A stretch of DNA of 64,000 nucleotides from Chryseobacterium nakagawai (GTDB lineage Bacteria > Bacteroidota > Bacteroidia > Flavobacteriales > Weeksellaceae): contig NZ_LR134386.1 of NCBI RefSeq assembly GCF_900637665.1, positions 2,658,501 through 2,722,500 of the forward strand, read 5' to 3'. Positions within the stretch are counted from its first letter, which is position 1. Every line of letters begins with the position of its first letter. Shown in pieces: positions 7,561 through 41,508 of this stretch. Under the pieces are notes generated by a model. That model was not told the origin of the DNA, searched no databases, and saw only the letters and a list, made by a program, of their open reading frames with translations. Both the position numbers and the translations under genes were made by a program.

Positions 7561-7918
7561 TCTTATACAATTTTTTAAATAGTTTTTTGGCTGTGGCCGA
7601 AATTAATGTGACGCAAAGCTTATTTTTGAGTGCACTTTATTTTGAATTGAGCTAAGAAGAAATGGATTAAAAATCGATTCTGATGAAACTTATTTTGGTG
7701 CAGCCAATGATAATATTATAAATGGCTTAAGTACCTTAAATTATTTTAGTAACAATATTCTATTTTCCAAAAAAGTCATACTCATGAAAAGTTATTTTGA
7801 CAATAAATCTTTTTACATTCTTCTTCAATAGGGAAATTGATAATGTTTTTTAGCAGCTTTTACGGTATAATTGTATATTTACTGTGAATTTTTTATACAC
7901 ATAAAAACAGGCTGTCTC
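7561..7918. other. Intergenic region with a relic reading frame
   Basis: AT-rich 358-bp gap. On the plus strand about 7643-7830 is open for some 60 codons with protein-like composition (it includes ETYFGAANDNIINGLSTLNY) but lacks a good start codon, so it may be a decayed gene end. Just before the patatin gene TATATTTA (about 7874-7881) is one base off the -7 consensus. I see no RNA gene or terminator. Confidence 0.35.
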
Positions 7919-10285
7919 ATGAAAAAATTCCTGCTTTTGGGAACTGTCATTTTTTCTCTTTTTCTTAAATCCCAACAGATTAACGACTCTCTGAATATCA
8001 GATTACAAAATGTAACGAAGGATACCAAATTTGGTTTGGCTCTGAGTGGAGGGGGTGCCAAAGGGTTTGCTCACATTGGAATTTTGAAAATGATCGATTC
8101 CTTAGGAATTAAGGTAGATTATATTACCGGAACCAGTATGGGGGGGATTTTGGGAGGTTTGTATGCAATGGGATATAATGCCGACGAATTGAAGAAAACT
8201 ATTTATAAAGTAGACTGGAACAGGATTCTGAGCAATAAAATCCCCTACAGCAAGGTGAATATCAGTGAGAAGGATGAGTATGATAAATATATTCTTGAAT
8301 TTCCGGTCGTAAAAGGAGTTCCAACGCTTCCCAGCTCCTACATTGAAGGGCAGTATATGGGGGAGGTCTTGAATACACTAACCTTTAACGCAAAACATAT
8401 CAATGATTTCAGTAAATTGAGGATTCCTGTAGAGCTTACTTCTTCAGATATTGAAAACGGAGGGCTGATTATGCAGAAGAAGGGATCTCTTCCCTTGGCT
8501 ATTCGTTCTACTTTGGCTATTCCTGCAGCTTTTGCTCCGGTGTATATTGATGGAAAGTTATTAGTTGATGGCGGGTTAGACCGAAACTATCCGGCTAATG
8601 AAGTTCGTCAGATGGGAGCAGATTTTGTTATCGGTGGCTATACCGGATTCAGGCTTTTTACCAAAAAAGAGATTGAAAATCCTATGAAAATGATCTACCA
8701 GACGCATGCTATCCGTTCTGTAGAGGATTTTAAGCATCAGAAGGCTTTATCCAACATTCTGGTTGACTTTGTAGACCCTTTGGGGGATATTACCACAAAA
8801 GACTTTGCAAGGTTCAGAAGGATCATTAAAATAGGAGAAGTAGAAGCCAGGAAGCATCTCCCTGAATTTGTTGCATTGGCAGAAGCTCAGAAAAGATTAG
8901 GGATCAAGTATGAACATGAAAAAATTGAGGAAGTAAAGCTTCCTACCACAAAATTTACCTTTAACGAGGAAAACGGAACTCCACTTAGCGATGAAGTAGA
9001 AATTGCTGTGATTAAAAAGGAACTTGGGCTGACGGAAGGGAAGTATTATGATGTGAAAACCGTCAATGAAGCAATAGACAGAGTGTTTGGAGTGCGTCAA
9101 TATGAAAAAGTTTATTACACTTATACCAATGAGGGCAATGGACTTACAATGAATATTTTCGTTAAAAAAGCTAAGAAAGGAGCTTTTAAGTTGGCTCTTC
9201 ATTATGATACAGAGCAGTCGGTGGGGATTATTGTAAATTATACGTACCGGAATATCCTGGCAAACAGATCAAGGTTCCTGGCTACTATCGATATTTCAGA
9301 GCGTTTTAAGGCAAGGCTGGCTTACCAGCTTTTTTTAGGAAGCGGCGACCATTGGTGGATTGATCTTGAGGCTAAAATGATACATCTTAAAAGTAATGAT
9401 TTAACATTTAGAACATTGGGATATGATGATGAAGATTATACCACGAAATTTCCTAACCATATTTATAGAAATATCACAGGAAAAGTGGCTTTAAATTATA
9501 ATATCAACCCCAATGCTTTTATTTCTTTAGGAACAGAATTCAGCACGGAAAGAATGTATACTTTGCTGGATAAAATAGATCAGGCAAGGGCAGATATTTT
9601 TAGCAAAAAGCTCTATAATCACAGTAATTTTAACGCATTTCTGAAGTTTGAGCAGAATAATCTGAATAAGAGGTACTTTTTTACCAAAGGGAATCATCTT
9701 CAGGTAAGTACAAGACTCTATTTTGGAGATCAATATAAGTTGTATGACCTGCAAGTAGTGCAGCCTCAGTTATATCCTATCTTAAATCCTAACAACCCTG
9801 GTTATTTTGTACCTAAGAATCTGGTGTCGTTTACGCTGAATGAAAATTTTGCTTATCCTATTACAAGAAGGCTGGCAGCAAAGGTGAATCTTTTTCTGGG
9901 AACTAGTTTTGGTTCCTACAAAGAAGATACAATCCCTTACTTTTTTCTGAACCAGAAATATAATTTAGGAGGAAGTGAGTACAACTATGATTTGTTAAAC
10001 CCAGAATTTAACGGACTTCGCCAGAAAGAGCTTCCTATGAACTCTGTTGCCAAAGCTGGAGTGTCGCTTCAGTATAGAATTATGAAGAGATTATACATAA
10101 CCCCTTCATTCAGTTATGGAAAAGTGAGTGAAGAGTTTTCTCCTTTTAATGACAGTTTTGAAATGTTCGGATACGGAGTCAACCTTGGCTATGAATCTCT
10201 TATAGGTCCTATTAATCTTAATATTTCCAGAAATAACCAACTTGATTTTTCAAGGATCTATTTCAGTATTGGGTTTAAGTTTTAA
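7919..10285 (+). CDS. Patatin-like phospholipase with C-terminal outer-membrane barrel (PlpD-like)
   Basis: A 788-residue exported protein combining an N-terminal patatin lipase with an Omp85-type barrel, the plan of type Vd autotransporters such as PlpD. A signal peptide (about 1-18) is followed by the patatin domain with oxyanion loop GGGAKG (44-49), nucleophile S73 in GTSMG and catalytic D217 in DGG. A POTRA-like linker (about 350-430) leads to a beta-barrel of alternating aromatic strands that ends in phenylalanine (YFSIGFKF), typical for BAM-dependent insertion. The likely activity is phospholipase A. I start at the ATG 7919, where a normal signal peptide begins, not the in-frame TTG at 7871. 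In this protein the lipase may stay attached rather than be released. Confidence 0.9.
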   Translation: MKKFLLLGTVIFSLFLKSQQINDSLNIRLQNVTKDTKFGLALSGGGAKGFAHIGILKMIDSLGIKVDYITGTSMGGILGGLYAMGYNADELKKTIYKVDWNRILSNKIPYSKVNISEKDEYDKYILEFPVVKGVPTLPSSYIEGQYMGEVLNTLTFNAKHINDFSKLRIPVELTSSDIENGGLIMQKKGSLPLAIRSTLAIPAAFAPVYIDGKLLVDGGLDRNYPANEVRQMGADFVIGGYTGFRLFTKKEIENPMKMIYQTHAIRSVEDFKHQKALSNILVDFVDPLGDITTKDFARFRRIIKIGEVEARKHLPEFVALAEAQKRLGIKYEHEKIEEVKLPTTKFTFNEENGTPLSDEVEIAVIKKELGLTEGKYYDVKTVNEAIDRVFGVRQYEKVYYTYTNEGNGLTMNIFVKKAKKGAFKLALHYDTEQSVGIIVNYTYRNILANRSRFLATIDISERFKARLAYQLFLGSGDHWWIDLEAKMIHLKSNDLTFRTLGYDDEDYTTKFPNHIYRNITGKVALNYNINPNAFISLGTEFSTERMYTLLDKIDQARADIFSKKLYNHSNFNAFLKFEQNNLNKRYFFTKGNHLQVSTRLYFGDQYKLYDLQVVQPQLYPILNPNNPGYFVPKNLVSFTLNENFAYPITRRLAAKVNLFLGTSFGSYKEDTIPYFFLNQKYNLGGSEYNYDLLNPEFNGLRQKELPMNSVAKAGVSLQYRIMKRLYITPSFSYGKVSEEFSPFNDSFEMFGYGVNLGYESLIGPINLNISRNNQLDFSRIYFSIGFKF

Positions 10286-10396
10286 GAGAATAAAGAACCC
10301 ACAAAGCTAGATGCTATAAAGAAGCTGGAGATTGTTTTATGGTAAGGAAGCTAAAAAATTAATGAAGATGATGCTACTTAATCATTTAAATTAATG

Positions 10397-10440
10397 AAAA
10401 AAGGCTGCCGGAAATCATTTTTCAATCATAACTTCCAGCC
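10397..10440 (-). terminator. Terminator of the di-heme peroxidase operon
   Basis: On the minus strand GGCTGGAA pairs with TTCCGGCAGCC (with a small bulge) across a long loop and runs into TTTTTT at 10397-10402. It sits 19 bp after the stop at 10459. The T-tract is only on this side, so it serves the minus-strand operon. Confidence 0.65.
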
Positions 10441-10458
10441 TCCTTCTTCCAGCCCAAT

Positions 10459-11595
10459 TTATTGTCTTGGAATTTCAGGTCTCGGCATTTTATAATAACT
10501 TCCTGACATGCTTTTCAGAAAAGCCACAATGGCATCTATTTCCTCATTATTGAGCTGTAATGCCTTCATCCTTTGATCGGTGACCGGAAATTTAGGATCA
10601 GCTTTCTTTTCTTCAGGACTGGGGTTAATCATTTGCATTCCGCTATTGTATAAATTAACAACTCCATGCAGATCATCCATTAATCCGTTGTGCATCCAAG
10701 GAGCAGTGTAATTCAAATCTCTTAAAGAAGGAGTTTTAAACTTGCCTACATCATTGGGATTGTTGGTAATATGATAAAGCCCAAGGTCTTCATATTCACG
10801 TTGGTAATAGGTGAGTCCTATGTTGTGAAATGATTCATCAGTCAGATATTTACCGTAATGACAATTCATACATCTTGCCTTAGTACGAAACAGGTGCATC
10901 CCATAGATTTCCTTATCACTCATGGCTTTGTGATCTCCTTTAATGAATTTATCCAGTTTACTCGGCTGGCTTCTGAGAGTACGCTGAAAGGTAGCCAGGG
11001 CATTGGCAATTTGGTTAAACGTAATCTTATCTGTATGATACACATCCTTGAAACGTTGCTTGTATTCCTTATATTTTGAAAGTTTCCCGGCCAGTTTTTC
11101 CGGTTTCATATTCATTTCGTTGTGAGCAGAGATGGGACCTACAAGCTGTTCTTCCAGCGTTTTAGCTCTTCCATCCCAGAAATAAGAAGTTCTGTCTGCA
11201 ATATTATAAAGGGACTGTGTATTTCTTTTTCCCAACAGATGGTCGTTTCCTAATGCCACTTCCTGCCCGTCACTCCAACCTAATTCAGGATTATGGCAGC
11301 TGCTGCATGAAACCTGACCTGATGCGGATAATTTCGGGTCAAAGAACAGTTTTTTCCCCAGCATTACCTCAGGAAGCTCCTGGGTTTCATAATAATTGGA
11401 ATCCCATTCTATTGCTTCAAATTCTTTCCAGTCGACATCTCCATCTATGGAAGGTTTAGGCCAATACTGTATAGGTTTCTTGTATTGTGCTGCCACTTCT
11501 CCATAATCTGTAGTGTAGGTTCGTAAAGTATGCTGCATACAAAATAGGGCAATTGTGCCTATCAGCAGTATTAATTTAATATCTGAAAATTTCAT
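10459..11595 (-). CDS. Di-heme cytochrome c peroxidase family protein
   Basis: A 378-residue periplasmic protein of the bacterial di-heme peroxidase (CcpA/MauG-like) family. Two c-type heme sites are visible: CSSCH at 97-101 and CMNCH at 242-246. FWDGRAKTLEEQ (139-150) and the C-terminal FKTPSLRDLNYTAPWMHNG are family signatures; the methionine-containing tail is the region that in classical enzymes ligates the high-potential heme. A membrane-type signal (about 7-22) targets it to the periplasm. It is the last gene of a four-gene operon, 9 bp behind the DUF6850-like gene. Known members reduce peroxide or oxidise protein or metal-bound substrates; the position after a TonB receptor suggests a role beyond detoxification. 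Confidence 0.92.
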   Translation of the reverse strand: MKFSDIKLILLIGTIALFCMQHTLRTYTTDYGEVAAQYKKPIQYWPKPSIDGDVDWKEFEAIEWDSNYYETQELPEVMLGKKLFFDPKLSASGQVSCSSCHNPELGWSDGQEVALGNDHLLGKRNTQSLYNIADRTSYFWDGRAKTLEEQLVGPISAHNEMNMKPEKLAGKLSKYKEYKQRFKDVYHTDKITFNQIANALATFQRTLRSQPSKLDKFIKGDHKAMSDKEIYGMHLFRTKARCMNCHYGKYLTDESFHNIGLTYYQREYEDLGLYHITNNPNDVGKFKTPSLRDLNYTAPWMHNGLMDDLHGVVNLYNSGMQMINPSPEEKKADPKFPVTDQRMKALQLNNEEIDAIVAFLKSMSGSYYKMPRPEIPRQ

Positions 11596-11604
11596 GTTTT
11601 TTAC

Positions 11605-13119
11605 TTAAAAAATACCTCCTATGGTGGCTGCAAAAAGCATATTATTACCATTTTGGAAATTACTGTACATCATTTTACCCCCTACATAAGCATTCTTAAT
11701 AACCGGAGCGTTGAAATGAAAATTAAGATCAAGTTTGGCCTGCCAGATGTCAGAAGACTGATATTTGTAATTTTCCTGTAGCATTTGCTGAATAGCAGGT
11801 TTTCCGGAAATATTGAAGACCGAATTTTTTTTATAGACATCCGTTACAGAAATTCCCGTAGAAATAGAAAGTGCAAGTTTATCTGTGAATGTTTTTAGCC
11901 ATTGAAAATCTGCGCCGTAGACCAGTTTATTTAAATCAATGATAGAAAGAGGAGTATTATATTTTTCTTTTTCCTGAATCCATCCGAAGAAAGGAATCAG
12001 GGACGATTTTGCCTCTGGATGTTCCATTGTAATGAGCCCTTTCAATACCAGATTGGTTATTTGATGAGTGTATTTTTCTGCGGAACCAATTTGTATATAA
12101 TTCCTTGAATTGTCATTAAGAAATAAGTTCTCAGTTCCTTTTCTGTTGATATGGTTTCCGATAACAGAAATTCCCCAGGAGATTCTGTCTGTTTCAAAAA
12201 ACTTTCCTAACGAAAAATTAAATTGTTGTTCATCAATTTTGGAGGCATTAAGATCTGCATATTCGGTCAGAAGCTTATCAAGATTCAGTTTCTTGATTCC
12301 CGCAGTAAGATACCATGATCTGTTTTCTGCTTCAAAAACCTGTAAACCACCACCATAAGTCCATCCCTCATAATACGCCTGACGAAGTTTTCCTGAAAGC
12401 AATTCATTATAGTTTCCCAGACCGTTCATATTGTAGATCATTGGAAACCCCTGATTGCTTACAAAACTCAGATAATGCTTTTGGGTATATTTTTCAGCTT
12501 CTACATAAGCCCCGATCTTAAACTTCTCAAACATCATTTTATTAGCTCCCAGAGCCAATGAAAAGGTAGCAGAAGTATTCTTAGGTCTCGGATCAATATC
12601 ACGATAGCTCAAACTAGCGCTGTAACTTCCCGTAATCCCCAGGGTAAATGAATTGATTTTCTTAGAATATCCCCCTGAAAATGCATAATTTTCAAACTTC
12701 ATGTCGCCCCCCACACTGTCTGCTGCTACGTAGGGGTAGATGATGTCATAATCAGCATTTTCATTCCATACTAGCTGCTTGTTTTTTCCTTGTGAGTAAG
12801 AAGCATTCCCCCAAACCACAGTTTTCGGATCCAATATCTGGTGGGTACGTGCTTCTGCCCCCCAGAGATTTTTTCCTTTGCCCTTTTGCTGGATTTCATT
12901 GGGAGTATCATTGTTTTGGGTGAATATATTAAAAACTGTAATCTGATACTTCCTTGAACCCAACCTATTGGCCGGGTTGGTATTGATGTCGTTTTTGAGT
13001 ATCCTTTCATAGCTATACTCCTCACGAATCTTCTTCATGATCGTATCATTGTCCTGACCATATATTTCAGAGCCAAGAAAAAGAACAGGCAGGATAAGTA
13101 TGGATTGAAAATGTTTCAT
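11605..13119 (-). CDS. Outer-membrane beta-barrel protein, DUF6850-like
   Basis: A 504-residue exported protein with a Sec signal (about 1-21, ending EIYGQ). Almost the whole chain alternates polar and aromatic residues in strand-length blocks (for example SWYLTAGIKKLN, NAYVGGKMMYSNFQ) and it ends in phenylalanine (ATIGGIF), which fits an outer-membrane barrel. I match it from memory to the DUF6850 outer-membrane barrel family, whose function is unknown; this name is moderately certain, the barrel is more certain. One base separates it from the upstream DUF4876-like gene and 9 bp from the peroxidase gene, so the three products are made together and probably act in one envelope pathway. Confidence 0.78.
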   Translation of the reverse strand: MKHFQSILILPVLFLGSEIYGQDNDTIMKKIREEYSYERILKNDINTNPANRLGSRKYQITVFNIFTQNNDTPNEIQQKGKGKNLWGAEARTHQILDPKTVVWGNASYSQGKNKQLVWNENADYDIIYPYVAADSVGGDMKFENYAFSGGYSKKINSFTLGITGSYSASLSYRDIDPRPKNTSATFSLALGANKMMFEKFKIGAYVEAEKYTQKHYLSFVSNQGFPMIYNMNGLGNYNELLSGKLRQAYYEGWTYGGGLQVFEAENRSWYLTAGIKKLNLDKLLTEYADLNASKIDEQQFNFSLGKFFETDRISWGISVIGNHINRKGTENLFLNDNSRNYIQIGSAEKYTHQITNLVLKGLITMEHPEAKSSLIPFFGWIQEKEKYNTPLSIIDLNKLVYGADFQWLKTFTDKLALSISTGISVTDVYKKNSVFNISGKPAIQQMLQENYKYQSSDIWQAKLDLNFHFNAPVIKNAYVGGKMMYSNFQNGNNMLFAATIGGIF

Positions 13120-13120
13120 T

Positions 13121-14341
13121 TTAGTTGAATAATGAAGGTTTTACACCATGTTCAAAATCTGCGGTGGAGTTATTGGTATCTTTTAAGATATCTTTACCTT
13201 CGGCATTTTTTCCTATAACTTTTCTGCGGACTGCTTTTCCAAAACGGTTTTTATCACCATCAAAAGATGTTACTGAGGTCCATCCCATGTCTAAAGAAGG
13301 AGAAGTAACCAACCATAGGAAAGAATCCTGTACACTTAAGTTCACTGCATCTGTGATCCATTCGTTCGGAATTTTAACAGCTGTTCCGTCCATAGGATAA
13401 ACATCTCCTCCGAAAGTAAGATTGTAAGTATAAGTGTACGAGTTCTGGCTGATTAATGACTCATTGGTCATTCCCTGTGGCATACGTGCTAAAGCGTAAG
13501 CATAATATCCCTGCGTGTGGATTACCATTTTTTCAAATACATTCACCATTTTAGGGACTGCAGGATTATCAATATCATCAGAATCTTCCTTGAAGATCTG
13601 GAAATTAGCGTGAGATAAATTGATAGATGACGGATTGAATTCTTTATGATTAATGGCATCTTCTGCAATGATAATAGAGGCTCCAGGTAATACCGGATAC
13701 GTTGTTCCATTTCCTGGAATTCTGATAATGGCTCCGGCAGAGAATGTAGTTCCCATGATATTAGGACTGTATTCCTGCTTTTCATTCGTCATAAATGCAG
13801 ATTGTATCAGCAGCATCCCGTCAGCATATAATGTTTTGTCTGTATTATTGGTTATTTTAAAATATTGGTCACCAAAATACATGGCTCCTTGTGGAGTTTT
13901 AGTTCCCGTAAAGAATACTTCTTCAAGGATAAGGTCGCTGCTTCCGGCTTTCATTGAAATGTCAAGAATTTTGGTCTGTTCAGTGCCATTGATGACAACT
14001 CCGGTCTGAACTCCACCTACTTTTGCTTCTGTGGCCACCGAATTATCAGTATAGATAATGCTTCCTTCCACAGTGATATTATAAGTTCCCGTTGGAAGAA
14101 CCTTTTTCAGAGAATTGGTGTTTTTAAGCACCTCAGTAGCTGTAAAACCGGTATTCAATTCCTTAAAGCTTACCGTAAGAGTTTTATATTCTTTGACCTG
14201 AATGTTTTCCGGAACTACTTTCAGCTGAAGATTTAACGTGGTTTGTGCCTGGGTTTCCGGGGCATCGGAATCTGACGAACATGCCGCAAGACTTAATACA
14301 GCACACAATAGTAATAGTGTTCTAAATAATTGTTTTAACAT
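13121..14341 (-). CDS. DUF4876-like surface lipoprotein
   Basis: A 406-residue lipoprotein: the signal ends in lipobox LAAC with acidic residues soon after (SSDSD), consistent with surface exposure. The N-terminal 30-140 region looks like an immunoglobulin or carboxypeptidase-regulatory fold (PTGTYNITVEG). The following segment (LEEVFFTGT, YFGDQYFKITNNTDKTLYADG) resembles lamin-tail-type beta domains and is characteristic of DUF4876 proteins, which are seen beside TonB receptors in Bacteroidetes; function is unknown. By position, 20 bp after the receptor gene, it may be the ligand-capturing partner of that receptor, comparable in role to SusD for SusC, although it has no SusD fold. That role is inference. 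Confidence 0.8.
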   Translation of the reverse strand: MLKQLFRTLLLLCAVLSLAACSSDSDAPETQAQTTLNLQLKVVPENIQVKEYKTLTVSFKELNTGFTATEVLKNTNSLKKVLPTGTYNITVEGSIIYTDNSVATEAKVGGVQTGVVINGTEQTKILDISMKAGSSDLILEEVFFTGTKTPQGAMYFGDQYFKITNNTDKTLYADGMLLIQSAFMTNEKQEYSPNIMGTTFSAGAIIRIPGNGTTYPVLPGASIIIAEDAINHKEFNPSSINLSHANFQIFKEDSDDIDNPAVPKMVNVFEKMVIHTQGYYAYALARMPQGMTNESLISQNSYTYTYNLTFGGDVYPMDGTAVKIPNEWITDAVNLSVQDSFLWLVTSPSLDMGWTSVTSFDGDKNRFGKAVRRKVIGKNAEGKDILKDTNNSTADFEHGVKPSLFN

Positions 14342-14361
14342 AACTTATTGGTTTGAAATTG

Positions 14362-17154
14362 TTATAAATTGAAATTGATCTCCATTCCGAAATACGGATC
14401 ATAAGTCCCTTTTCTGTTGATCGTAAATCCATTAACGCTATAAGGAGCGTAATAACTGAAAAGTCTGTTGGCAAACATGGAAACAATAACAGTCTTATTC
14501 CTGAAGCTTTTGGTTACTTTAAGATTAAGATTGGCTTCCAATGGTCTTCTGGTAGCATTATACCGGTCCTCATTCTGAGGAATAATCAATCTTTCAAGAA
14601 TGGTTTCTCTGGCTATACCAGGGTCGAATGGGAATATATTACCGTTTTGATCTACATAATGGCTTGGAATTCCGTTCATCGGATCTAGTTTTCTCATCGA
14701 ATACCATGAAAACTGGAAAGAGGTAGAGAAGATCAGATCCAACTTTGGAATGTAGGTATCCATCATCAGATTTGTATTCAGTATTTCGTTTACAGAATTA
14801 GGCTCCATTCCATTATAAAGGCCAAGATAAGGATAAGGTCTCCCGTTAATCAATAGATCAGGTCTTTTGTAGACTGGCAGGCTGTTCCCATACTTTGTAC
14901 GAAACCAGGCACCACTCAATGTAAATCTTGTATTAATGACAGGAATTCTGTTGGAAGAATATTGAAATTCTACCCCTTCCTTGTCTATTTTACTTCCATT
15001 TCGCTGGGCAGAATACATGAAGTTCTCTGTCATAAGCTGATAGGGAAGTGTGTTGACATCCGGTGGAGAAGTTATGGTTTCGTGGTTAAGAGCAGAGGTA
15101 TCGTATTTTTTATATTGATAGCCAGCATATTCATTCATAGACCGGAATGCGCTGTGCATCTTTTCCTTAAAAACAGTTACGGATAATTGATGAAGCCCAA
15201 AGGTAAAGTCGATCCTTGTTTCGAACTTTTCATTGACAGCAGGCTCTATTTCCGGATTCTGAGGATTATAGATCATCGTTTTATAGTTCACTCTTCTATA
15301 ATTCTGATTAGAATGGAAATAATTGAGTTGCTGGATATCTTTATAAATCAATTCCGGATATAGCAGATTAAGGTCCGGGAATAAACTCTGTTTACCATAG
15401 CCTAATGTTAATGCAAGTTGAGCCTTTTTATGCATCAGGCTGAATTCCGGAAGATTCCATTGAAGGTTGATTCTTGGGTCCAGATATACTTTTCCGTTCA
15501 TTTTAAACTGAGTAGGAAGATTGAGCATTGAGTTTCCTCTTAATCCCAATGCTAATGCCAGCTGATGCTGACCAAGATTTGCCGTGCTGATCGTTTCTAA
15601 AAACAAAGCAGAAGTAGAATAGGCCGGAACATCACGATAGGCGCGTGGTCTGAAGGTGGCTTTAGGATCTATGGGCTTATAAACATCAAATAATTGTCCC
15701 TGACCCCAGTTTTTACTTAATTGCCAGTCGAATCCTGTGTTGATTTCATTTTTTACAGCTTTAAAATTCCATTGGAAGTTATTAACCATTTTTACAAAAA
15801 TATCAAGCGGTTTACCATCTACCGTATAGTCTGAAATGTATCGCGCCTCAGGATAATAACCGTCATATTCACCCTCAGTTCTTGAAAGTGGGAAAGCAGT
15901 GGCGTTTTCCAACTGGATAAATTTGGTTTGTTTTATTTTGTCAAATCTTTGATTGACTGTTGCCTGAATCTCTGTTGATCTGTAAAAAGAAGGTTCTGTT
16001 TTTATGTAATTAAATACATTCGAAAGGCTTACCAAATGATTGTTGACTTCATATGAATTTAATTGAGATAGATCTACATCCGGATCGGTCTTTGAGCCAT
16101 CCAGTGAACCTGTATAACTCAAATGGGTCTGCCATCTGAATATGCCATGATTGCGTTGTTTTTCTTTTGCTAAAGCAAAATTGGCTGTAATTCTTTTATA
16201 GTTTTCCAGCTGGTCTCTTGGATCAGATTTAGCATTCAGATAATCAATTCCGGCATTGATTTTTAGGTTTTGCTCCTTATCTTCAAATCCCTTGCTAATA
16301 GCGAATAGTTTACTGTAACCGTCTGCTTTAAATCTGGATTTCCATGGGGTATATCCTGATTTATTGGTGATTTTAACAATTCCGGAGGTAAGGTTTCCGT
16401 AAATTACTGAAGGAATCCCACGCAGAATCTCCACTTTTTCAATCTGGTCTGTTGAAATGCTTCGCATATCTACACCGCTTGTTAGATTGAGCCGTCTTTT
16501 CAGTCCGTTATTGCTCTTGTCTAAAAAATCATAGGTATATTGAAGGTTAGCCCCGGAGTTCAATGGAGCACCATCTACCAGAAATGTAGTTCCCATGGCA
16601 GAAGTATTGTAATCATTACCAGGATTACCTGTTTCACGAAGCGTTATTTTATTCACCTGATTCAGGACAGGGTCTCCGGATCGTCCTCCCGGAAGAAGCT
16701 CCAGAAGATCTGTAAAACTGGAGGGCTGCAAATGCTGCATAGCACGCTGATTGATGATAGAAGATGAAGTTAACCCCTGACTTTCTTTGGCTGTAATAAT
16801 CACTTCTTCAATGGAATTGATTTTGTCTGCCAGTGAAAAGGTAAATACTTCAGGTTTTGTGATGCTAATCTTACCAGAATATTGAACGATATTATTTTTA
16901 TGAATTTCAATAGTATACTGACCGGGGATAGCAGAAATAACCGCAACACCTTTATCGTTGGTAGAGGCGGAGTATATAGTTTTAGCGGATAGAATTTTAA
17001 TTTCTGAATCGGTAGCCGGTTCAGAATGATTATTTTTTATTTCAAATGAAACAGTCGCAGACCTGTCTTGCGATTGAGCTGTTGAAAATGCAGTGAGAAA
17101 TAAAAATGTGAAAATTTGTGTTTTAAAAGGGAATCGAGGATCGTTTGGTACCAT
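14362..17154 (-). CDS. TonB-dependent outer-membrane receptor
   Basis: A 930-residue outer-membrane transporter energised by TonB. A signal peptide (about 12-29, ending AQSQ) is followed by a carboxypeptidase-regulatory-like domain (about 32-110), a plug domain (about 118-260; MGTTFLVDGAPLN, IEKVEILRGIPSVIYG) and a long barrel ending in FGMEINFNL. It is not a SusC-type protein: no SusD gene follows, and the plug has the ILRGIPSVIYG form common to siderophore or metal-chelate receptors. The ATG at 17154 lies 18 bp after a TACCTTTG element. First gene of the operon with the DUF4876-like, DUF6850-like and peroxidase genes. No Fur-box-like palindrome is obvious to me upstream, so the ligand stays open. 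Confidence 0.93.
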   Translation of the reverse strand: MVPNDPRFPFKTQIFTFLFLTAFSTAQSQDRSATVSFEIKNNHSEPATDSEIKILSAKTIYSASTNDKGVAVISAIPGQYTIEIHKNNIVQYSGKISITKPEVFTFSLADKINSIEEVIITAKESQGLTSSSIINQRAMQHLQPSSFTDLLELLPGGRSGDPVLNQVNKITLRETGNPGNDYNTSAMGTTFLVDGAPLNSGANLQYTYDFLDKSNNGLKRRLNLTSGVDMRSISTDQIEKVEILRGIPSVIYGNLTSGIVKITNKSGYTPWKSRFKADGYSKLFAISKGFEDKEQNLKINAGIDYLNAKSDPRDQLENYKRITANFALAKEKQRNHGIFRWQTHLSYTGSLDGSKTDPDVDLSQLNSYEVNNHLVSLSNVFNYIKTEPSFYRSTEIQATVNQRFDKIKQTKFIQLENATAFPLSRTEGEYDGYYPEARYISDYTVDGKPLDIFVKMVNNFQWNFKAVKNEINTGFDWQLSKNWGQGQLFDVYKPIDPKATFRPRAYRDVPAYSTSALFLETISTANLGQHQLALALGLRGNSMLNLPTQFKMNGKVYLDPRINLQWNLPEFSLMHKKAQLALTLGYGKQSLFPDLNLLYPELIYKDIQQLNYFHSNQNYRRVNYKTMIYNPQNPEIEPAVNEKFETRIDFTFGLHQLSVTVFKEKMHSAFRSMNEYAGYQYKKYDTSALNHETITSPPDVNTLPYQLMTENFMYSAQRNGSKIDKEGVEFQYSSNRIPVINTRFTLSGAWFRTKYGNSLPVYKRPDLLINGRPYPYLGLYNGMEPNSVNEILNTNLMMDTYIPKLDLIFSTSFQFSWYSMRKLDPMNGIPSHYVDQNGNIFPFDPGIARETILERLIIPQNEDRYNATRRPLEANLNLKVTKSFRNKTVIVSMFANRLFSYYAPYSVNGFTINRKGTYDPYFGMEINFNL

Positions 17155-17172
17155 CTGGCATTATTCTTCCGG

Positions 17173-17180
17173 CAAAGGTA
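17173..17180 (-). promoter_or_regulatory. -7 promoter element of the TonB receptor operon
   Basis: TACCTTTG followed by C on the minus strand, an exact TAnnTTTG match 18 bp before the ATG. No TTG at the usual -33 distance, which may mean an activator is needed. Confidence 0.7.
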
Positions 17181-17636
17181 GGAGGCTACAGATAAGATAA
17201 CTAATTTTATTTAGAATAATTTAAAATAATTGATAAAAATCAGTTTACTTGCTTTATTGATTTTATCTTTTTTTGACCTTAAAAATTAGGTTTGTTTTGG
17301 TGTATATTGTTGTTTAATAGTGTTTTATTTTTATTTCATATGAAAGTTGTGAAATTGTATTTCTAATTTTTATTGTTAGAATTATTCTTTACAGAATGAG
17401 ATGCTTTTGTTAAAGAATAGCATAAATTTAAACCATTATGACCTAATAAGATTTTAAGTAAAATTAAGTTTCATCAAATGTGAAAAGGGAGATAGCTTAA
17501 CCAATAGTTTTAGCTATGAACTTCACTTTTCTTAATCCTTAAACAGAAGCTTAATGGCTTAAATTATCGTAAACGTCTTGGAAATTCGTGTAATCTGTGG
17601 GAGATAAATTATTGTCAATAAAATAGTTGGTTGATC
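17181..17636. other. Long intergenic region with degenerate repeat remnants
   Basis: AT-rich and without an acceptable reading frame. From about 17480 it contains an imperfect palindrome (GTGAA..ATAGCT..AGCTAT..TTCAC, 17479-17527), then tandem CTTAAT-type words and a GTGTAATCTGTGGGAGA stretch. Similar word strings recur in other gaps of this window (near 53041, 58590 and 59620) and look like remnants of interspersed repeats. Confidence 0.4.
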
Positions 17637-17701: not shown

Positions 17702-19657
17702 CTATAGTTTAACTTTTTTATTGATTGTTTTTCCATTGGAAAGAGTCATTTGTACTACATAAACTCCCTGTTCCATATTTTTTGATTCGAATTGCTGCGA
17801 ATTCACTTCCTGCTGAAGGAGTAAAGTTCCTGAGATACTGTATATGCTGATATTTTTAATATTATTATTAGCTCTGGCTCTGATCTGTTTGTTCTGAGCA
17901 AAGATATCTGTACGGTTTTCCAGTTTGTTACTTCCAATATTTTTATTGAACTGCAGATTATAATAGGAGGTCACTATTTCGAATGTATATTTCTGTGCAT
18001 CCAGATCTTGTAAGCTGATGCCATTGTTTTCCTGATACTGATCTTTGGAAATCGTTTGAACCAGATTTTTGTTTTCATCAAAAATATGAACCGCTGAAAG
18101 TTCGTTCTCATCAATCTTTAATTTTAAAACTGAATTGTTTTCCGATTGTACAACTTCACTTTCAGCCACTTCTTTAGGACTATTCTTGATGTATGGAAGC
18201 ATTTTATCCTTATGGTTTTCCGATACTTTTAACAGATATACACCATCTTTTAGAGTGGTTAAGCTACGATCATTTGCTGATCTGCTGCCAGCATTTTCTG
18301 TATTGAAATCAGTAACTTCAATCAACTGCATATTTCCGAGGTCAGGTTTTATCTGGGAGGAAAATAGAGTAGGCGTTTCTGATGAAGATGCTGTTGACTG
18401 TTTTCCAAAAATAGAGCCCACTACAGCCCATTGATTAAAAAGACCGCCGCTTCTTAAGGTGTTGAATTTGGCATTAGAAGCCAGAACAAATGGAACAATA
18501 CCTCCTACATGCCCGATAGGTCCCCAGTAGAAAGAGTCCAGTTTATATTTATTCAGATCCCACCATGCATAATAACCACGTTGTACATCAATAGTTTTGG
18601 AAGTATTTTCAGGTGGAATGGCTAAATCTACTGTAGAATGGCCTAGCGTCATAGGAGTTTTATTATACCAGTCGTATACATCTTTAGGTTTCAGACATTG
18701 TCTGAATGTATGATTGGGATTATTGGTCACATCATTCACAAAATTGGTTGTGAACATTTTTCTCCATAGAAACGGTCCCCACAGCAGACCTCCGTTGTCC
18801 TGAACAACATGATAATTGTATTTGTCAAGATATTCTGCGGAAATAACTTCCGAAATATCATTAGTATATGTTTTATATCCTGTATTGTTACAGCTGTGAA
18901 GAACATTGGCCAGGAAGGAACTAAACGGATAAATATCTTTTTCTAAAACACCTTTCTTTAAAGTGGTTTCCGACATGTCGTAAGGTCCGTCTCCCATATA
19001 AGCATACTTAAATTTCAGGTTGCCGGGATTGGAAACGTTCAGCCTTTTTAGAGTAGACATTGCTGCATGAGCCCCTTGTGAATAGCCTGCTAAGAAATAT
19101 TCATCATAGCGTTTTACTCCCAATTGGGCCAGTGCTTTATTAGCTGCAGTAACAAAATCAATCGTAGCACCCGCTTCAGTAGCATAATCTACATAAGGAT
19201 GTACACCATCTCCGTCACCCATTCCTACATAATCGGGAGCCATTAAAATGTAGCCGTTGAGAACATAAGAAAGCTCTACAACAAATCCGGCTGTCAGGGT
19301 TCCTTTAAAATTGGAAGGAACATTATGCCTGCTATCAGTAGTTCCGTGGTCGGAAACTACGGTGGAAAGTTTCATATTGACATTAGGATACATCAGCAGA
19401 CCTGTTGCTTTTACAAGAATATTGTTTTCATTTTTGGTATAATAGGTTATTTTATATCCTTTTAAACCCACATTAAACCCATTCAGATAATTTACAAAAT
19501 CCGGGGCATTTTGTTCACCAAGATTATTGGCAATAAAATTAATAACTCCCTGCGGCGTTAAATCCAGTTTCTGTTCGGCGCTTACAAGGTCTCCTGCCTG
19601 TTGAGCAAAGTAGAATGGAGCTGTAAGTCCTATTAAAAAAGTTGTTATTTTCTTCAT
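17702..19657 (-). CDS. Secreted alpha/beta hydrolase (lipase-like) with T9SS sorting domain
   Basis: A 651-residue secreted enzyme. A signal peptide (about 1-18, ending YFAQ) is followed by an alpha/beta-hydrolase fold with nucleophile S193 in GYSQG and an upstream DYVGMGDGDGVHPY segment as in secretory lipases and related esterases; a late GHVGG (about 385-390) could hold the catalytic histidine region. The C-terminal about 80 residues (ISIYSISGTLLLQQEV ... GVYVVQMTLSNGK ... KKVKL) form a type A T9SS signal, so the protein is exported across the outer membrane and the tail removed or lipid-linked. I use the ATG at 19657, where the signal peptide begins, since upstream codons (to 19726) overlap the promoter. 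Single gene with its own promoter and terminator. Confidence 0.88.
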   Translation of the reverse strand: MKKITTFLIGLTAPFYFAQQAGDLVSAEQKLDLTPQGVINFIANNLGEQNAPDFVNYLNGFNVGLKGYKITYYTKNENNILVKATGLLMYPNVNMKLSTVVSDHGTTDSRHNVPSNFKGTLTAGFVVELSYVLNGYILMAPDYVGMGDGDGVHPYVDYATEAGATIDFVTAANKALAQLGVKRYDEYFLAGYSQGAHAAMSTLKRLNVSNPGNLKFKYAYMGDGPYDMSETTLKKGVLEKDIYPFSSFLANVLHSCNNTGYKTYTNDISEVISAEYLDKYNYHVVQDNGGLLWGPFLWRKMFTTNFVNDVTNNPNHTFRQCLKPKDVYDWYNKTPMTLGHSTVDLAIPPENTSKTIDVQRGYYAWWDLNKYKLDSFYWGPIGHVGGIVPFVLASNAKFNTLRSGGLFNQWAVVGSIFGKQSTASSSETPTLFSSQIKPDLGNMQLIEVTDFNTENAGSRSANDRSLTTLKDGVYLLKVSENHKDKMLPYIKNSPKEVAESEVVQSENNSVLKLKIDENELSAVHIFDENKNLVQTISKDQYQENNGISLQDLDAQKYTFEIVTSYYNLQFNKNIGSNKLENRTDIFAQNKQIRARANNNIKNISIYSISGTLLLQQEVNSQQFESKNMEQGVYVVQMTLSNGKTINKKVKL

Positions 19658-19703
19658 ATAGTGATTTTTTAATAGTGTTAAGGTAATAACTTCAATAAAT
19701 TCA

Positions 19704-19711
19704 CAAAAATA
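19704..19711 (-). promoter_or_regulatory. -7 promoter element of the T9SS hydrolase gene
   Basis: TATTTTTG on the minus strand, an exact TAnnTTTG match, 46 bp before the chosen ATG at 19657. No -33 TTG is visible. It supports the shorter start because a frame starting at 19726 would lie upstream of it. Confidence 0.55.
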
Positions 19712-19762
19712 TTCGGACAATAACAATTATTCATTGAATATTAAATTCTCCGGAAAGTGAGT

Positions 19763-39678: not shown

Positions 39679-41508
39679 ATGAGATCTTATCCACTGCTTG
39701 TTGTTATCCTTTTAATAGGATTTGCAGTAATGTCTTTTAATCCTGTTTACAAAGGAAAAGAAAGTGAGAATACATTTATAAATAAAGGATTATCTGATTT
39801 TAAAGGTACGCTTGAGCAGCTGAAGTCAGATGTCCGTAAGTTCTCTGAAGACCGTATTTCCCTTGAAGAACTGCAGGAATCATTAAGAAGTACAAGAAAT
39901 TCATTTAAGGAAATAGAATTTTATATTGCTTATCATTATCCCGAATTCACCAAGTCTCACCTCAATGCAGCTCCTTTGTTTCATATTGAAGCTGCTGGCA
40001 CATCAGCTTATACACTTCCACCGGAAGGACTACAGGTTTTAGATGAATTGATATTTTCTGAAGAAGCAGGAGATGAGAAAGAAAAGATCAAAACAATTGC
40101 CGATTTTTTATACAACAGCTATTCAGGTTTTTATCTGAGTGCTATGAAAAACGGAATGAGTAAAGGAAACAATAAAACGTTGCCATTGCGTATAGAATTG
40201 ATCAGGATCTATTCTCTGGGAGTAACAGGTTTTGACACTCCGGGTTCGTTGAATATTTCCGAAGAAGCCAGTCATGCCCTTTCAGGAATGCAAAAATATA
40301 TCAATGATGATCCTTATTTTAAAAATTATAATACCCAACAAGCAGATCAGACTTTCGCAGAGGCTATAAGTTATCTTTCAAAAAATAAAGATTTTGAAAC
40401 CTTCGATAGAATTGAGTTCTATAAAAAATATATTCAGCCTTTATATGAAGAATTAGGAAGATGGGATGGCAGACCTGATGATATGAAAGAATTTTCTGGC
40501 TGGAATGTCAATAATAAAAACCTTTTTAGTAGTGATTTTTTAGATCCTTATTTTTATACATTGCTGAAATCTTCAGAAGATAGTCCGAATCTTCGTAATC
40601 TTGGAAAATCGATTTTCTATGACCAGAATTTAAGTGGTAATGAGAAAATGAGCTGTGCAACATGCCATCTTCAGGAAAATGCTTTTACAGACCTTAAAGC
40701 TAAGTCGGCAAGTAACGTGGAGGGTAAAACAGTATTGAGGAATTCACCGTCCTTATACAATGCAGTTTTTGCCAAAAGATTTTTTTATGACCTGCGTGCT
40801 TTTTATCTTGAACAGCAGGCTGAACATGTGATATATAACGCAGATGAGTTTAATACAAGCTACGAAAGTATCATTCAAAAGTTAAAAACAAAATCTGAAT
40901 ATAAAAAAGCATTCCGTACCGCTTTTAAAGACGGAAAAATCAATAAAGAAAATTTTTCAAAAGCTTTAAGCTCCTACGTTGCATCCTTATATTCTTTTGA
41001 CAGTGATTTTGACCGGTTCATGAGAAATGAAAAAAATGTTTCGGAAGAGGTGAAAAGAGGATTCAATCTGTTTATGGGAAAAGCGAACTGCGCAACCTGC
41101 CATTTTGCGCCTCATTTTTCAGGGTTGGTACCGCCATTTTTTAATGAAAACGAATCTGAAGTGCTGGGTGTGACTACTCAACCTATTAAAAAACTTCCTA
41201 TAGAACTGGATCAGGATTTGGGAAGAGGAAACAGTCCTGTGAAAAAAGAAAGATCCTGGATCTATGATTATTCTTTTAAAACCGTTACCGTAAGAAATAT
41301 TGCCCTTACAAAACCTTATTTCCATAATGGAGCATTTAATACTTTAGAAGAGGTTCTTGATTTCTATAATGAAGGCGGAGGAGAAGGGTTGGGGCTCAAG
41401 ATGAAAAATCAGACCCTTGCTCCGGATAAATTAAATCTTACTCAAACGGAAATGAACCAAATAATTGCCTTTCTGAATGCACTTACAGATGTGAGTAAAG
41501 CAAAGTAG
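39679..41508 (+). CDS. Di-heme cytochrome c peroxidase with long N-terminal domain
   Basis: A 609-residue periplasmic protein. The C-terminal half is a di-heme peroxidase: CATCH at 326-330 and CATCH at 471-475, NSPSLYNAVFAKRFFYDLRA between them, and TVRNIALTKPYFHNGAFNTLEEVLDFYN near the end. The N-terminal about 280 residues (after a membrane-type signal, 5-20) form an extra all-helical domain that the 378-residue paralog at 10459 lacks; I do not recognise it. Such fusions suggest a specific redox partner or a substrate other than free peroxide. It has its own promoter and terminator. A PhoX-like gene follows 284 bp later, separated by a terminator, so they are not one operon. Confidence 0.9.
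   Translation: MRSYPLLVVILLIGFAVMSFNPVYKGKESENTFINKGLSDFKGTLEQLKSDVRKFSEDRISLEELQESLRSTRNSFKEIEFYIAYHYPEFTKSHLNAAPLFHIEAAGTSAYTLPPEGLQVLDELIFSEEAGDEKEKIKTIADFLYNSYSGFYLSAMKNGMSKGNNKTLPLRIELIRIYSLGVTGFDTPGSLNISEEASHALSGMQKYINDDPYFKNYNTQQADQTFAEAISYLSKNKDFETFDRIEFYKKYIQPLYEELGRWDGRPDDMKEFSGWNVNNKNLFSSDFLDPYFYTLLKSSEDSPNLRNLGKSIFYDQNLSGNEKMSCATCHLQENAFTDLKAKSASNVEGKTVLRNSPSLYNAVFAKRFFYDLRAFYLEQQAEHVIYNADEFNTSYESIIQKLKTKSEYKKAFRTAFKDGKINKENFSKALSSYVASLYSFDSDFDRFMRNEKNVSEEVKRGFNLFMGKANCATCHFAPHFSGLVPPFFNENESEVLGVTTQPIKKLPIELDQDLGRGNSPVKKERSWIYDYSFKTVTVRNIALTKPYFHNGAFNTLEEVLDFYNEGGGEGLGLKMKNQTLAPDKLNLTQTEMNQIIAFLNALTDVSKAK

Follow-up and report, generated by a model that had tools for sequence, protein, structure and literature searches.

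A probable iron-acquisition operon of Chryseobacterium nakagawai that combines a TonB-dependent receptor, DUF4876 and DUF6850 proteins and a di-heme enzyme

Bacteroidales carry iron-responsive loci in which a TonB-dependent receptor is encoded together with a DUF4876 lipoprotein; published work on these is cited here, and throughout, from excerpts. In low iron, PG1019-22 was up 20.8-214.5-fold and BT3625-33 was up 36.7-128-fold (PMC10434189). A DUF4876 gene of P. gingivalis was among the strongest hemin-responsive genes with a log2 change of -5.42 (PMC10470040), and in RNA-binding-protein strains the PG1019 protein is listed as changing along with HmuY and flavodoxin (PMC12119571). The structure of one DUF4876 protein, BT_1938, is available (4q1z), and a literature search by family name returned nothing for DUF6850. 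In this paper, we report a computational analysis of a four-gene operon of Chryseobacterium nakagawai that encodes a TonB-dependent receptor, a DUF4876 lipoprotein, a DUF6850 protein and a di-heme c enzyme. The operon lies in a stretch of 64,000 nucleotides (contig NZ_LR134386.1, positions 2,658,501 to 2,722,500 of the forward strand), hereafter called the window, from whose first letter positions are counted unless another contig position is given.

We read this unit as probably a Fur-repressed outer-membrane iron-acquisition operon with an enzyme that processes the import. That the operon functions in iron acquisition is very likely, and that the di-heme enzyme acts on the imported compound is plausible and held tentatively. 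A preliminary description of the locus had called it the best candidate for an undescribed system; "undescribed" is too strong, because relatives of the receptor and DUF4876 genes have been reported as iron-stimulon loci and the structure of BT_1938 has been solved.

Operon layout and Fur-type operator

All four genes are on the minus strand and are separated by gaps of 20, 1 and 9 bp, as the preliminary description had it and as the listing of open reading frames (ORFs) and the Pfam matches agree. The first gene encodes the receptor (14362..17154; 930 aa; PF07715 Plug, E 5e-11) and is followed by the DUF4876 lipoprotein (13121..14341; 406 aa; E 1e-56), whose Cys21 is the predicted lipid-bearing residue and which has a 99% match in Chryseobacterium sp. 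Marseille-Q3244, the DUF6850 protein (11605..13119; 504 aa; PF21012, E 2e-76, 258.3 bits against a cut-off of 27) and the di-heme enzyme with two CXXCH motifs (10459..11595; 378 aa; PF03150, E 2e-53). The DUF4876 protein belongs to PF16215 both by curated profile score and by its predicted fold, which matches that of BT_1938; in the Pfam scan it had no HmuY or DUF4374 (XusB) domain, and DUF4876 alone scored above the cut-off, with two weak unrelated matches below. The DUF6850 protein folds as an outer-membrane beta barrel in its predicted model, so that, with the Plug domain of the receptor and the MauG-like enzyme, the earlier picture of two barrels, a lipoprotein and a di-heme enzyme holds. 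The receptor itself had no match to PDB sequences at E 0.01, and its NCBIfam matches were weak and all far below cut-off (TonB-siderophor 24 bits, PqqU 18 bits, B12 14 bits).

The signals proposed earlier at both ends of the operon were recovered. A -7 promoter element, TACCTTTG (17173..17180, minus strand), is predicted from the sequence by likeness to TAnnTTTG, which we take to be the consensus. At the far end, a hairpin with a T run (about 10395..10451, minus strand) forms a predicted intrinsic terminator; a 79-nt stretch has a folding energy of -31.4 kcal/mol (z -6.0), a level matched by 0 of 200 shuffled sequences.

Just upstream of the promoter is a Fur-type operator, TTATTTTAAATTATTCTAAATAA (17207..17229, minus strand), which is an exact match to a degenerate palindrome. 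The preliminary description had neither this box nor the other operon copy in the genome, nor the iron regulation published for relatives. The palindrome has two exact matches in the whole genome (5.6 Mb), one ahead of each operon copy, and the same pattern read backward, used as a control, has none. The second copy is complete and lies on the same 5.6-Mb contig (G000:C1:4760677-4767451, locus L003), where the receptor is ahead of DUF4876 (4764164), DUF6850 (4764930) and the enzyme (4766549). A further 11 sites in the genome have one mismatch to the palindrome; some are near a feoAB-like locus, several TonB receptors and a siderophore-interacting-like gene, as judged from ORF translations read by eye, and a few adjoin genes with no obvious link to iron, such as a phenylacetate-CoA-ligase-like gene and two secreted proteins.

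A comparison is provided by Riemerella anatipestifer, for which the Fur box is given as ATTTAGAATTATTCTAAAT and Fur bound all four promoters tested in electrophoretic mobility shift assays, the abstract of the same paper giving a classical GATAAT-type consensus instead (PMC5609570). The best upstream match of the window operon to the Riemerella consensus is 17/19. Within the taxonomic family of C. nakagawai (hereafter the family), a best match of at least 15/19 in the 200 bp upstream was found for 46 of 52 operons and for 12 of 348 other genes in the same loci. With a box upstream, the operon has the sequence mark of a Fur regulon member, and Fur would be expected to bind it.

Conservation of the core and coupling of the enzyme

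Gene neighbourhoods were compared in 82 loci (the window, the second copy, 51 from the family and 29 others), which were picked for holding DUF4876 and so show association and not background. The loci took in every DUF4876 place of the family sample and left out 14 of the phylum sample; ORFs were called mechanically and related genomes are not independent. The order receptor-DUF4876-DUF6850 was present in 79 of the 82 and the full four-gene order in 52, an arrangement that is, among loci so chosen, not due to chance. The core is conserved and the enzyme is not a constant member of the unit, M16 protease or PepSY/ABC genes being present instead in many Bacteroidales relatives.

The two core families without a known role coincide closely. 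DUF4876 was found in 44 of 148 family genomes and DUF6850 scored above cut-off in 44, which are the same 44 genomes when the lists are compared. In a phylum sample of 395 genomes, 37 had DUF4876, and 35 of these had DUF6850 (E 0.001) within about 5 kb, the others being G156 and G181; two genomes (G222 and G338) had DUF6850 above cut-off without DUF4876.

Within the family, 47 of 53 loci have the enzyme; of the 29 others six do, two belonging to the order of the window, two more to its class and the last two to other parts of the phylum, which gives 53 of 82. A search of the 148 family genomes with the window enzyme at E 1e-70 returned 67 rows, which were placed by coordinates against the DUF4876 places. 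Matches of at least 57% identity were in DUF4876 operons in 31 of 33 cases (exceptions G111:C3 and G099:C6), those of 44-51% in 15 of 22 and those of 37-43% in none of 11; the one more row was a fragment (G049). Across the 104 family genomes without DUF4876, and apart from the G049 fragment, G111 alone had a nearly full-length enzyme of at least 57% identity, aligned over query residues 61-376. Pairwise divergences in 47 four-protein loci correlate at r 0.93-0.98, a level reached by 0 of 999 permutations and expected for any co-inherited unit, and the enzyme is the slowest-evolving part.

Some loci depart from this pattern. The G111 gene (G111:C3:76659-77606) and the G049 fragment (G049:C1:663585-664043) may be traces of operon decay, and in two genomes whose operons are without the enzyme (L088 in G004, L089 in G053) an enzyme of 48-49% identity is encoded elsewhere and may act in trans.

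Proposed function and alternative explanations

Relatives of the operon were ranked by likeness to the Bacteroides-type sequence in a Bacteroides-first alignment, and the best 80 of 507 were taken as a named set, in which the shares depend on that ranking; 78 were scored, two having no DUF4876 ORF in the ORF calling. The core order is kept in 68 of the 78, most exceptions being loci cut by contig ends. In 32 of the 78 Bacteroidales-rich loci, the next five genes include, on the same strand, a member of an M16 protease family that was identified by Pfam on one member; 30 of the 36 members of this family, which include several fragments, retain the HxxEH motif. Six named loci (Flavobacterium, Tenacibaculum and Chryseobacterium) carry the di-heme enzyme, and no locus of the named set has both enzyme and protease. 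A third arrangement, present in full in 9 of the 80, consists of the neighbour clusters k3, k6, k2 and k4; Pfam searches on single representatives gave k6 as PepSY-type and k4 as DUF4857, k2, outside the Pfam scan, looks by sequence like an ABC ATPase, and k3 and k5 had no Pfam match. In Bacteroides fragilis (L137) the order is receptor, DUF4876, DUF6850, k3, k6, k2, k5, k4, which matches the order listed for BT3633-BT3625.

Three side observations concern these neighbours. Orders related to BT3625-BT3633, described in the excerpt of PMC10434189 as a putative fimbrillin locus present in B. thetaiotaomicron alone among its three species, were found in B. fragilis and other Bacteroidales. Loci L094 and L115 and a further 33 in the range L133-L212 combine receptor, DUF4876 and DUF6850 with members of the M16 family. 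In five loci (L060, L077, L080, L082, L086) the gene directly 3' of the di-heme gene belongs to one cluster, whose L077 member is a DUF4920 protein; DUF4920 may be of one family with the Bacteroides gene k3, for which hhalign gave a probability of 40%.

The presence of M16 protease or PepSY/ABC genes at the enzyme position suggests a receptor core that stays the same and a processing step that can be exchanged. The constant core fits the capture and TonB-driven import of an iron source, and the variable gene fits processing. In the mechanism that we propose, low iron would cause Fur to leave the box beside the promoter and the four genes would be expressed as a single transcript. The DUF4876 lipoprotein, probably on the surface, would capture an iron-bearing compound, which the TonB-dependent receptor would import, and the DUF6850 barrel could help in capture or let a product pass. 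In the periplasm, the di-heme enzyme would process the import oxidatively and free the iron from its chelator or carrier. The preliminary description had proposed import of a metal complex or cofactor; uptake of a metal-bearing compound is indeed probable, and the evidence points to iron. Its further proposal that the enzyme oxidises or strips the import is one that we also infer. More tentatively still, we suggest a phylum-wide platform for iron piracy, in which receptor, DUF4876 and DUF6850 form the core and the periplasmic enzyme is exchanged, Flavobacteriales using a MauG-type oxidase that would free iron by oxidising the chelator or carrier and Bacteroidales an M16 protease or a reductase/ABC set. 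To our knowledge, the release of iron by a di-heme oxidase acting on an imported chelator or carrier has not been described for iron uptake.

Several points weigh against the iron-acquisition reading with an import-processing enzyme. BT1933-39, which includes BT1938, was up merely 3.5-7.4-fold in low iron (PMC10434189). Outside the family, the Riemerella consensus is rare upstream of the operon (3 of 27, controls 2 of 182), and other lineages may therefore use other sites or regulators. Within the window, where the exact match alone was counted as evidence, the box pattern has two matches at up to three mismatches and 7 of 100 shuffles equal that. The enzyme is absent from 29 of the 82 loci and from 6 of 53 in the family sample, and so is not essential to the core. 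An enzyme that uses an oxidant could equally serve peroxide defence. No experiment on the window operon was found; the operon is not named in the excerpts of the Elizabethkingia and Riemerella CH-1 iron transcriptomes and of a heme-receptor paper on F. psychrophilum, which cover those papers in part and do not establish its absence.

The alternative that survives best, though it is doubtful, is import of an iron protein, or of iron or heme bound to a peptide, in the way of Fus and protease-associated import systems, the carrier then being broken up in the periplasm by a protease or by the di-heme enzyme. The M16 genes downstream of the core agree with this, FusC being an M16 protease of the Fus system, which takes iron from plant ferredoxin (PMC6071955). 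However, by ORFs and Pfam the window operon has no M16 protease and holds the di-heme enzyme instead, adjacency of genes is no proof of a common substrate, and the receptor has no PDB sequence match at E 0.01 that would tie it to FusA.

The remaining alternatives depend on the nature of the enzyme. It scored 181.2 bits against CCP_MauG (cut-off 25.6), and its CXXCH motifs, at residues 97 and 242, are both present in all 52 aligned operon enzymes. For the C-terminal part the best alignments are to MauG and to the di-heme enzyme 6e1c (BthA), and the best PDB sequence matches of the whole length are di-heme peroxidases. In classical bacterial cytochrome c peroxidases Met is an axial ligand of the second heme; in MauG this Met is replaced by Tyr and the reactive heme is without the distal His. 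Tyr316 of the window enzyme aligns to MauG Tyr294 and stands where the Geobacter enzyme has Met, and Tyr is found at this position in all 52. By this aligned ligand the enzyme is of MauG type, yet it falls far below the cut-offs of the MauG equivalog TIGR03791 (222.3 bits, cut-off 443.9) and of MbnH TIGR04039 (204.8 bits, cut-off 362.9). At the loop position of the classical distal His, the window enzyme and 24 of the 52 have Asn and 15 of the 52 have His; two residues further on, 36 of the 52 have His. An open, MauG-like reactive heme, first read from one alignment, was dropped on these family counts.

It is therefore somewhat less improbable than that first alignment implied, and still unlikely, that the enzyme is a peroxidase which shields the envelope from hydrogen peroxide during iron uptake or starvation and leaves the substrate untouched. 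The distal histidines would allow a closed, peroxidase-like heme, the whole-protein PDB matches point the same way, and the enzyme occurs mainly in Flavobacteriales, which are mostly aerobic. In an oxidative-stress study, the transcriptome of a PG0686 mutant has PG1019 and PG1020 among the changed genes, in a table whose column meanings fall outside the excerpt (PMC10101095). The Tyr that aligns as second-heme ligand speaks against this role, which moreover would not need tight operon coupling. The slow change of the enzyme next to quickly evolving receptors agrees with action on the import and would agree with peroxide defence too.

Modification of an operon partner is slightly more improbable. 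Here the enzyme would give DUF4876, DUF6850 or the receptor a residue that binds metal or is redox-active, comparable to MauG on tryptophan tryptophylquinone (TTQ) and to the action proposed for CorB and SACCP on CorA and MopE. The MauG-type Tyr would suit such chemistry, and CorA/CorB and MopE/SACCP form pairs, repressed by copper, in which a copper protein of the surface is joined by a di-heme peroxidase-like partner, a kynurenine derived from Trp being close to the copper (PMC3912023). When alignments of the three partners were divided into loci with and loci without the enzyme, no Trp, Tyr, Met, His or Cys was near-invariant in the former and absent from the latter, and residue conservation gives such a modification no support. 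In enzyme-bearing loci no partner has a near-invariant Trp, the best, Trp328 of DUF4876, reaching 68%. The strongest single signal is Tyr350 of DUF6850, which 48 of 50 enzyme-bearing loci and 9 of 28 others have as Tyr, but it and Tyr145 also occur in Bacteroides-type and family loci that have no adjoining enzyme, so that both residues follow lineage. Between the two copies in the genome, the enzymes are 58% identical and the partners 28-39%, unlike a tight enzyme-partner pair.

Uptake of copper, manganese, cobalamin or another metal or cofactor, with an incidental Fur-like box, is very improbable, being suggested by the weak NCBIfam matches of the receptor and by the di-heme relatives CorB and MbnH, the latter presumably, of copper systems, and opposed by the box statistics and the iron or hemin response of relatives.

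Returning to the window, two clusters adjoin the operon here and in loci L047 and L048. Upstream is a secretory-lipase-like protein with a type IX sorting tail (17702-19726), and convergent with the operon is a patatin fused to an Omp85-type barrel (7871-10285). A further CCP_MauG-type protein of 609 aa (39679-41508) has an N-terminal extension of about 300 residues and no WPKP motif.

Comparison with known systems

HmuYR heme uptake and XusABC xenosiderophore uptake in Bacteroidota resemble the operon in combining an iron-regulated TonB receptor with a lipoprotein or hemophore; the window lipoprotein differs from theirs in having no HmuY or DUF4374 match, and we know of no DUF6850 or di-heme part in either system. 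With MauG, the BthA-like 6e1c and MbnH, the window enzyme shares the two CXXCH motifs and the Tyr at the MauG Tyr294 position, and it differs in its scores against the MauG and MbnH families, in its partners and in its Fur-type control. The methanotroph pairs CorA/CorB and MopE/SACCP are alike in that a metal-repressed surface metal protein is co-transcribed with a di-heme peroxidase-like protein; they answer to copper and not iron, the excerpts mention no TonB receptor or barrel, and the window system has no conserved Trp.

Fus and protease-associated import are matched by the Bacteroidales relatives, in which an M16 protease comes after the TonB receptor set, and differ from the window operon, which has the di-heme enzyme and, as extra parts, DUF4876 and DUF6850. 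Fus, in which an M16 protease helps to take iron from imported ferredoxin (PMC6071955), offers the closest model for the protease version.

PG1019-PG1022, BT1938-BT1939 and BT3625-BT3633 share the iron-regulated TonB receptor and DUF4876 lipoprotein, and in the excerpts they have neither a di-heme gene nor a substrate. The comparison gives a testable role to DUF4876 and DUF6850, relatives of which respond to low iron with strong induction in Bacteroidota of the gut and mouth, and the exchangeable enzyme position suggests one import platform that could adapt to different iron carriers or to life with or without oxygen. If the enzyme does act on an imported iron compound, MauG-type chemistry, so far tied to the making of cofactors and the handling of copper, would extend to iron acquisition. 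Set beside these systems, the unit probably adds a further form of TonB-dependent iron acquisition, one whose relatives have already been seen in transcriptomes.

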